From Candidatus Photodesmus blepharonis (lineage in GTDB: Bacteria > Pseudomonadota > Gammaproteobacteria > Enterobacterales > Vibrionaceae), in contig NZ_JGVK01000027.1 in the NCBI RefSeq assembly GCF_000731795.2, forward strand, positions 40,515-104,514: a DNA stretch of 64,000 nucleotides, written 5' to 3'. The translations under genes and the position numbers were made by a program. The first letter of the stretch is position 1. Each line of letters begins with the position of its first letter. Shown here piece by piece: positions 60,253 to 64,000 of the stretch. Below the pieces are notes generated by a model that saw only the letters and a list, made by a program, of their open reading frames with translations, ran no database searches and was not told the DNA's origin.

Positions 60253-62844
60253 TTATTTCTGGTCATTTTTTTTGTTGCCATTTAGAATGATTCCCTTTAA
60301 TCTATAAAGCTCATCTAATGCTTGACGAGGCGTAAGATCATCAGGCTGTATATCTCTTAAAGCTTTCGCTAGTAAGTTTAAAGTAGGTATGATATTTTTC
60401 TGATTCCTAACGGCTGCTAAACGAAATTTTGTTTCATTCGGTTTTATAGCAGTCTCTTCAAGCTCTTTTAGTTTTATGAAAGCCTCTTTGATAGCCATTT
60501 TTGGGATTCCAGCTAGCCTAGCGACAGCTAAACCGTGGGATTTGTTTGCTGGGCCTGTTTGTATTGAGTGCATAAAGACAATTTTATTTCCATGTTCTAC
60601 TGCGTTTAAGTGTACGTTAGCGAGATTAGATAGTTGATCTGGCAACTTGGTTAACTCAAAGTAATGAGTAGCGAACAGTGTCAACGAATTATTTTTTTCA
60701 GCAAGATATTGCGCGCTTGCCCAAGCTAATGACAATCCATCGTAAGTGCTAGTTCCGCGTCCAATTTCATCCATTATCACTAAACTGTAAGCGGTGGCGT
60801 TATGAAGAATATTTGCTGTTTCTGTCATTTCGACCATAAAGGTTGAACGACCAGAAGCCAAGTCATCTGATGCTCCAACACGAGTAAAAATACGATCGAC
60901 AGAACCAATTTGAACCGATTCTGCTGGTACATAAGAACCGATATGTGCCATTAGGACAATTAATGCTGTTTGGCGCATATAGGTTGATTTTCCTCCCATA
61001 TTCGGACCAGTAATAATTAGCATTTTTCGTTCTTCGTTAAGTTCAATTGAGTTAGGAATGAAAGGTTTATCAATCACTTGTTCAACTACTGGATGACGTC
61101 CCGATTGTATATAAATTTCAGAGTTTTGAGTCAAAAAAGGACGGCAATAATTTAATGTTTCTGCTCGTTCAGCAAGGTTTTGCAAGACATCGATCTGTGC
61201 AATCGCTGATGCGAGGTTTTGTAATGATTCTAAGTTTGGCATGAGCAGATCAAAGAGTTCTTCCCAAAGTTTTTTTTCTATCTCTAAAGCTTTTGAGCGT
61301 GAGTTAAGAACTTTATTTTCGTACTCTTTCAATTCTGGAATTATATAACGTTCGGTGTTTTTCAATGTTTGACGACGAAAATAATTAGGTGGTACTAAGT
61401 GACTTTGTTTACGACTAACTTGAATAAAGAAACCGTGTACACTATTATAACCAACTTTAAGCGTGTCGATACTATGACGCTTGCGTTCATTAATTTCTAG
61501 TTTATCGAGATAATCTTTTGTACCCTTTGCTAGGTTACGCCATTCATCTAGTTCTTTATTATAGCCTTCAGCAATTACATTACCATCACGTATTAGAACT
61601 GGAGGATTTTCTTTTATTGCGTTCTTTAATAATAAATATATTTTTTCTCTAGATCTTGATGACATAGCTAATTCAGCCAAATAGGGGTGAGTCACGGAGC
61701 TTAGTATGATTTCTAGTTTAGGTAGTTGTTCTAAAGCTTGACGTAAACGGGTCATATCTCTAGGTTTTGCTGAACGTAGTGCTACTCGTGCTATAATACG
61801 CTCAATATCGCCAATTTGTTTTAGGATAGGTCTAAGTTCTGAAAACAGGAAGCGATCTTTGATTTCTTCGATAGCACTAAGACGTTTATTTAAAGTATTA
61901 ATGCAGCGAATTGGTTGATGTAACCAACGTTTAAGCATGCGACTTCCCATAGTAGTCGCGCTATGGTCAAGTACTTTGGATAAAGTGTTTTCGCTACCAC
62001 CTGATAGATTGTGAGTGATTTCTAGATTACGCCGTGTAGTCGCATCTAATAGCATAAATTTTTTTTGATGTTGAAAAGTTAAAGAGCGAATATGAGGTAG
62101 TGCAGCACGTTGGGTATTTTTTACATATTGTATTAGGCAACCTGCAGCGCATAAACCTAAGATTGCTTCTTCAATTCCAAATCCAACTAGGTTGTTTGTA
62201 TCAAATTGCTGATTGAGTTGTTGTTTTGCTGTGTCAAATTCAAATTCCCAAACAGGGCGACATCGATTGCCATTTCGGTTGTGTATTAGTTGAATGGGTT
62301 CAAAATTTTCTGGAAAAAGAAGCTCTCTTGGAGAAGTACGCAGTAATTCTGAGGCCATTACTTCCTCTGTTTCGATTTCAGTTAGCTGAAATCGACCAGA
62401 AGTTATATCTAAGGTTGAATAGCCAAATTTGCCTTTACAATGATAGATAGCGGCAATTAAGTTATCAATTTTTTCAGGTAATAGAACTTCATCAGTAACA
62501 GTACCTGGCGTTATAATTTGTACTACTCTTCTTTCTACTGGTCCTTTGTTAGTATGTGGATCACCAACTTGTTCGCAAATAGCTGCCGATTCACCAAGTT
62601 GAATTAACTTTGCTAGATAGTTTTCAAGTGAGTGGAATGGGATACCAGCCATTGGAACTGGTTTTCCTGCTGATTTCCCTCTATGAGTTAAGGAGATATC
62701 TAATAATTGCGAAGCAAGTTTTGCATCGTCATAAAAAAGCTCATAGAAATCTCCCATACGATAAAATAGCAATATTTCGGAATGTTCGGCCTTTAATTTT
62801 AAGTATTGCTGAATCATGGGGGTGTGTTTTTGATCATTTTGCAT
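60253..62844 (-). CDS. mutS: DNA mismatch repair protein MutS
   Basis: The 863-residue protein (E. coli 853) has the mismatch-binding Phe-Tyr-Glu region ([14 protein letters not shown], about 34-47), the clamp and lever domains, and a C-terminal ABC-type ATPase with Walker [10 protein letters not shown] and [17 protein letters not shown]. It recognises mispairs and recruits MutL. Retention of mutS is notable since many reduced genomes lose mismatch repair. It converges on rpoS and is divergent from recA. Confidence 0.97.
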
Positions 62845-62924
62845 GGAAGCACATTTCTTATTTATGTTGTGTGAAACACAATACGTGAATTATGGTTATA
62901 CGAAAAGATTTAAATAGATTTAAA

Positions 62925-63050
62925 ATGCTCAGGATTGCGTTCTCAGGTAATAGATTTGAAAAAAAATTAATTATGATGAAGTCTTATTTCAATGAGTTAA
63001 GCAGTGGCTTTAAAAATGTTTTGTTGAAAAAATTAAAACTTGATAAGTAA
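62925..63050 (+). pseudogene. pncC: Probable C-terminal remnant of pncC (cinA family)
   Basis: A 41-codon plus-strand frame reads IAFSGNRFEKKLIMMKSYF and ends at TAA 63048-63050. It resembles the C-terminus of nicotinamide-nucleotide amidohydrolase PncC, which has an (H)FSG(D/N)R..V..Q.V.YAL pattern. In Vibrio and E. coli pncC lies between mutS and recA in the direction of recA, exactly here. The upstream three quarters of the gene are gone. Evidence is one short motif plus position. Confidence 0.55.
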
Positions 63051-63056
63051 ACAGTA
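63037..63056 (+). promoter_or_regulatory. Degenerate LexA box / -35 region upstream of recA
   Basis: AACTTGATAAGTAAACAGTA matches 14 of 20 positions of the palindromic SOS consensus; the left CTGT half-site reads CTTG. TTGATA (63040-63045) equals the E. coli recA -35, but the ACAGTA half-site follows after 5 bases instead of 12. No CTGT occurs anywhere in 62845-63158, so no intact LexA operator is present there. The operator looks truncated by a short deletion. This is inference from comparison with E. coli. Confidence 0.45.
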
Positions 63057-63158
63057 GAATGGCAATTCATGGTAAGCTTAACCAGTCTGGAGTGATGTCT
63101 TGTACATGCTGAGCAATGAACAGTTATCTATCAATAAGCAGATATATTGGAGAAAGTG

Positions 63159-64000
63159 ATGGACGAAAATAAACAGAAAGCCCTAGCTGCAGCTCTAAAT
63201 CAGATTGAAAAGCAGTTTGGCAAAGGGGCAATTATGCGCCTTGGTGATAATCGAGCGATGGACGTTGAAACTATTTCTACGGGTTCGCTTTCTTTAGATA
63301 TTGCTTTAGGTGCTGGTGGTTTGCCAATGGGACGTATTATAGAGATCTATGGTCCAGAATCATCCGGTAAAACAACCCTCACTCTTGAATTGATTGCTGC
63401 CGCGCAACGTGCAGCTAAAACCTGTGCGTTTATTGATGCAGAGCACGCATTGGATCCAATTTACGCAAAAAAATTAGGTGTTGACATTGATGCACTTTTA
63501 GTATCTCAGCCAGATACTGGCGAGCAAGCACTAGAAATTTGCGATGCTTTAGCTCGTTCTGGAGCCATTGATGTTATGGTTGTTGATTCTGTAGCCGCAC
63601 TAACGCCGAAAGCAGAAATTGAAGGAGAGATGGGAGACAGCCACATGGGTTTGCAAGCCCGTATGCTTTCTCAAGCCATGCGTAAATTAACTGGTAACTT
63701 GAAGCAGTCTAGTTGCATGTGCATTTTTATCAACCAAATTCGCATGAAAATTGGTGTTGTGTTTGGTAACCCGGAAACGACTACTGGCGGTAATGCTCTT
63801 AAGTTTTATGCTTCAGTTCGCCTAGATATTCGTCGTGTTGGTTCCATTAAAGAAGGTGATGAAGTTATTGGTAACGAAACACGTATTAAAGTGGTCAAGA
63901 ATAAGATTGCTGCACCATTTAAGCAAGCTGAAATGCAAATTCTATATGGTCAAGGTTTTAATCGTGAAGGAGAGCTAATTGATTTAGGTGTCAAACACAG
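63159..64000 (+). CDS. recA: Recombinase RecA, 3' part beyond the window
   Basis: The first 280 codons are present and intact. They include the N-terminal helix region, Walker [10 protein letters not shown] (residues 65-73), the Walker B strand [13 protein letters not shown]1 ([19 protein letters not shown]) and L2 ([15 protein letters not shown]). RecA drives homologous recombination and SOS induction. GGAG sits 6 bases before the ATG. The gene is cut by the window edge, not broken. The upstream control region looks decayed. Confidence 0.98.

Follow-up and report, generated by a model that had tools for sequence, protein, structure and literature searches.

Probable decay of the LexA operator upstream of recA in a reduced genome related to Vibrio

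The region upstream of recA in the window (the whole stretch of 64,000 nucleotides that was analysed) is very probably an ancestral Vibrio recA promoter that has persisted after the loss of LexA, with recA now being transcribed without LexA control. In the explanation that we propose, genome reduction would have cost the lineage of two reduced genomes, that of the window and that of Candidatus Photodesmus katoptron (katoptron below), its lexA and several of the genes under LexA control. Once the repressor was gone, selection on the operator would have ended, so that substitutions could turn the left half-site CTGT into CTTG while the -35 and -10 hexamers stayed 16 bp apart. The recA gene, retained together with ruvA in both genomes and with a recC in katoptron, would then have continued to use the old promoter, now free of LexA control. 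We infer the use of the old promoter, the constitutive expression, and the order of events, with lexA being lost first and the operator decaying afterwards, from the comparisons described below. The operator most likely decayed because the repressor using it is gone, and the case looks like ordinary genome decay and not like a new system. If this is right, the locus captures regulatory decay part-way, with the repressor gone, the operator half-readable, the promoter geometry kept, and the recombinase retained, and it offers a modest, testable example of the fate of a hub gene after the loss of its control circuit in a host-dependent symbiont.

The recA locus and its operator in relatives

The window genome comprises 1.11 Mb in 33 contigs and is rated 99.99% complete. 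Over the 280 residues compared, its RecA shares 95% amino acid identity with the proteins of several Vibrio and 93% with that of katoptron (L011), whose 1.0-Mb genome is the only other one of similar size among the 37 searched in the genus. The two genomes have their small size, their gene losses, and the neighbourhood of recA in common, the gene order in both being mutS, recA, a frame which we take to be tsaD-like, and, further on, a frame which is presumably dnaG-like. The window genome is apparently related to the symbionts that live in the light organs of flashlight fish, and it may be that of the second of the two described Photodesmus species. That the sequence is an artefact of assembly or contamination is barely credible; the assembly is a draft of many contigs, but katoptron, which was assembled separately, has the same gene order and is likewise without the operator and lexA.

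The recA upstream interval covers 314 bases (62845-63158), from the start of the divergent mutS (minus strand, 62844) to the recA ATG (plus strand, 63159), and on its other side, past L148:4215-4225, recA is flanked by the convergent tsaD-like frame. In V. ouci, the frame upstream of recA is presumably cinA-like; when two V. ouci frames were used as queries for its remnant between mutS and recA, none of the matches was credible, the best having an E of 0.65 in katoptron. The features of the locus are listed in Table 1.

Table 1. Genes and proposed promoter elements at the recA locus, in window coordinates
Feature	Position	Strand	Remarks
mutS	60253..62844	-	One open frame (863 aa) diverging from recA; five MutS domains
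Probable -35 hexamer TTAAAA	63033..63038	+	Vibrio register TAGACA/TGGACA; best gapless matrix position; consensus scan
Probable decayed LexA operator CTTGATAAGTAAACAG	63039..63054	+	CTGT to CTTG on the left, right ACAG kept; 5 of 16 bases differ from Vibrio CTGTATGAATCAACAG
Probable -10 hexamer TAGAAT	63055..63060	+	Vibrio TATAAT; matrix, MAFFT, consensus scan
recA	63159..63998	+	Extends beyond the window end; frame stops at L148:4214; Pfam RecA E 3e-142

The upstream interval contains no CTGT and two ACAG (63051 and 63120), where 0.67 CTGT are expected from base composition, with a probability of about 0.51 of finding none. Exact CTGT-N8-ACAG sites are absent from the whole window (0.55 expected). 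By itself, the absence of CTGT is little signal; it is the sequences of the relatives that make the loss clear. The same-genus set consists of 25 recA loci (22 plus 3 named Vibrio, two sets which possibly overlap, with the window and katoptron left out), and 24 of them carry CTGT-N8-ACAG upstream of recA, as the identical 16-mer CTGTATGAATCAACAG in 20 of those 24. The sole exception (L118) reads CTGTATGAATTACCAG, one base off the pattern. TATAAT lies directly 3' of the operator in 23 of the 24 loci and is displaced in one (L121). According to an excerpt of PMC3323433, LexA binding to the V. parahaemolyticus recA promoter was used as a positive control.

A wider set of 80 named recA loci, katoptron included, was scored for the site closest to the pattern in the 400 bp before recA, some loci having shorter upstream sequences. 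This site is exact in 59 loci, whereas 11 loci show one mismatch, 7 show two, and 3, katoptron among them, show three. The window does not show the CTGT-N8-ACAG palindrome that marks a LexA operator (SOS box), and its best score of two mismatches among the eight fixed bases is reached at two different places, namely, CTTGATAAGTAAACAG and one unrelated site. The comparison with relatives (24 of 25 exact versus two mismatches in the window) bears out the original prediction that recA has lost a normal LexA operator, and the motifs on which that prediction was based, the lack of a CTGT half-site in the 314 bases and a TTGATA box (63040-63045) with ACAGTA (63051-63056) 5 bases further on, are found as described.

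The ruvA loci of two Vibrios, searched over about 1.5 kb upstream, contain no exact box, and hence ruv provides no second operator comparison. As a separate observation, CCAG in place of ACAG is found as the same one-base change of the right half-site in the recA operators of L118 and of L130, L019, L030, and L054, which are other gammaproteobacteria.

Promoter register and the mode of operator decay

The original prediction further suggested that a deletion of about 7 bases had spoiled the promoter spacing, which is probably wrong. A position-weight matrix was built from the 24 Vibrio sites in a 28-nt core version and a 42-nt version. The best position of the core matrix in the window is 63033 with -1.4 bits, the runner-up scoring -21.6, and the matrix score is matched by 2 of 1000 shuffles for the core and by 14 of 1000 for the longer version. 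MAFFT aligns the window without gaps to three Vibrio promoters at 63033-63060, which puts CTTGATAAGTAAACAG in the place of CTGTATGAATCAACAG and leaves the Vibrio spacing of 16 bp between the hexamers TTAAAA and TAGAAT. The consensus scan returns this pair as the only promoter-like site in 62845-63170, where shuffles average 1.7, and the hexamers are weak, with 9 of their 12 bases agreeing with the consensus. The window sequence has the -35 and -10 hexamers, the 16-bp spacer, and the ancestral place of a sigma-70 recA promoter of the Vibrio type, with a distance of 98 nt from the -10 hexamer to the ATG versus 86 to 89 nt in three Vibrios.

A deletion of 7 bp would have taken the left half-site and brought TTGATA and TAGAAT to within 9 bp of each other, leaving the old promoter dead and recA to be read from another promoter. 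We consider this unlikely, although TTGATA-5-ACAGTA does exist, many recA promoters outside the genus read TTGATA at the -35 place (e.g., L129 and L131-L135), and the deletion register requires 5 substitutions and one 7-bp deletion versus 9 substitutions in the gapless register. The change counts alone leave the choice between the two registers unsettled. Within the genus, however, TTGATA occurs at the -35 place in none of the 25 loci, all of which have TAGACA or TGGACA, and MAFFT and the matrix both choose the gapless register. The 20 nt upstream, an A-rich stretch, also fit three Vibrios better without a gap (8, 8, and 9 identities of 20) than in the deletion register (5, 3, and 5). Because of these flank matches, the TAGACA or TGGACA of all same-genus loci, and the 16-bp spacing, we favour the gapless reading, with the operator having probably decayed by substitution and the promoter spacing having been kept at 16. 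Read in this way, the window resembles a Vibrio recA promoter with CTGT-N8-ACAG in its place before recA, in the 16 bp between the hexamers, in the right ACAG, and in the TAnAAT -10, whereas it differs in its left half-site, CTTG, and in belonging to a genome without a LexA domain.

LexA and SOS genes in the reduced genomes

The LexA DNA-binding domain (PF01726) has no match in the window genome. It is present in 53 of 61 genomes and, within the genus, in 35 of 37, where only the window genome and katoptron give no match. A whole-LexA query gave no match either, the genomes searched with it including no positive control. The domain is also unmatched in six other genomes of the order (G038, G043, G050, G055, G057, and G059), one of which (G050) has 4.3 Mb and is rated 100% complete.

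The Vibrionaceae SOS genes named in an excerpt of PMC3323433 are recA, lexA, recN, uvrA, ruvAB, dinB, and umuDC. Our searches for SOS genes took in Peptidase_S24, the Y-family polymerase, UvrA, RecN, RecX, SulA, and RuvA. Peptidase_S24 (the umuD type) and the Y-family polymerase (PF00817) are each unmatched in both reduced genomes and present in all five other Vibrio-genus genomes searched. UvrA (TIGR00630) and RecN (TIGR00634) exceed their cut-offs in neither of the reduced genomes and in both of the full-size ones, the reduced genomes giving weak partial matches of at best 34 bits versus 1499 for UvrA and 22 bits versus 589 for RecN. RecX (PF02631) is matched in neither reduced genome and in both full-size ones, and SulA (PF03846) in neither reduced genome and in two of three full-size ones.

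Because the LexA domain, Peptidase_S24, the Y-family polymerase, RecX, and SulA are unmatched and UvrA and RecN stay below cut-off, the LexA/SOS circuit appears to be gone in both reduced genomes. The suggestion in the original prediction that the circuit may be lost is thereby supported as an apparent loss, with no match for the LexA, umuD-type, Y-family polymerase, and SulA domains in these searches. Some recombination genes are kept; ruvA is present in four of four genomes, both reduced ones included, and the RecC C-terminal domain was found in katoptron. Repair as a whole is not stripped, since the flashlight-fish symbiont Akat8 has 12 DNA repair and recombination genes, like three free-living relatives with 11 to 12, according to an excerpt of PMC6020299.

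It is very improbable that our searches missed a repressor that still controls recA through a new motif, be it a diverged LexA or a different protein. Unusual LexA-like repressors are described in excerpts of the literature for Bacteroidetes (PMC8565304) and, as UmuDAb, for Acinetobacter (PMC11332147), and the window assembly is fragmented, but PF01726 and Peptidase_S24 are unmatched in two assemblies with completeness ratings of at least 99%, and AACTTGATAAGTA, the longest stretch found identically upstream of recA in both genomes, does not form a palindrome.

The exact pattern CTGT-N8-ACAG occurs genome-wide 6 times in the window genome, where the reversed-pattern control gives 5, and 6 times in katoptron, where the control gives 1, while five full-size genomes have 39 to 51 exact boxes versus 24 to 48 for the reversed control. 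The genome-wide box count has little power, and the excess in katoptron counts against a clean loss. The boxes of the window genome are in the frames of an HSP70 family protein, a class II tRNA synthetase, ApbE (here ahead of the domain and perhaps before the start codon), YidC, a phosphoglucomutase, and an ABC-2 transporter. Those of katoptron are in the frames of MutS, a metallophosphatase, RecC, TilS, a CoaBC-type flavoprotein, and a secretin, the recC box lying about 0.4 kb before a frame which we take to be recB-like. The 12 boxes were considered as surviving SOS promoters and rejected, each of them lying inside a stop-to-stop frame of 90 aa or more and none having a repair gene directly after it.

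That bacteria with reduced genomes can lose LexA is already known, an excerpt of PMC8565304 naming Rickettsiae as a LexA-less example. The window genome shares with them the genome reduction and the absence of LexA, but in this Vibrio relative the old operator has left a trace that can still be read. Such a loss is not universal in reduced symbionts, a tubeworm endosymbiont expressing lexA and recA according to an excerpt of PMC10300362. Among the matches listed in our literature search there is no paper on lexA or the recA promoter of this symbiont, and an earlier report may exist.

The recA upstream region of katoptron

Like the window, the katoptron recA region has no operator, belongs to a genome without a LexA domain, and contains the word AACTTGATAAGTA. 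At 13 nt, this is the longest word common to the two upstream regions, and 6 of 1000 shuffles share one as long. The gapped local score gives no significant homology between the two regions, being reached by 148 of 1000 shuffles, and MAFFT leaves the katoptron copy of AACTTGATAAGTA unaligned to that of the window. TTAAAA-16-TAGAAT is readable in katoptron as well (L011:2939-2966), as one of 5 promoter-like sites in the consensus scan versus 3.2 in shuffles, while the matrix finds no significant site there, its best scores being reached by 339 and 529 of 1000 shuffles. The 16-bp spacing can be read in katoptron too, with weaker support than in the window. Unlike the window, katoptron has no ACAG in the region, its distance from the -10 hexamer to the ATG is 34 nt versus 98 nt, and the homology of the stretch is not firm.

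On a speculative reading, which we think rather doubtful, selection held the recA promoter at the 16-bp spacing after the loss of LexA while the operator was erased differently in the two sister symbionts, by substitutions in the window genome and, in katoptron, by the right half-site losing 5 nt and the sequence upstream gaining 5 nt in compensation. If true, operator erasure by two routes would record in nature how an inducible gene turned constitutive.

The adjacent mutS of katoptron (L011:120-2710, minus strand) is broken into two frames near an A run, whereas the window mutS is one open frame. The split may be a sequencing error or a real loss of mismatch repair.
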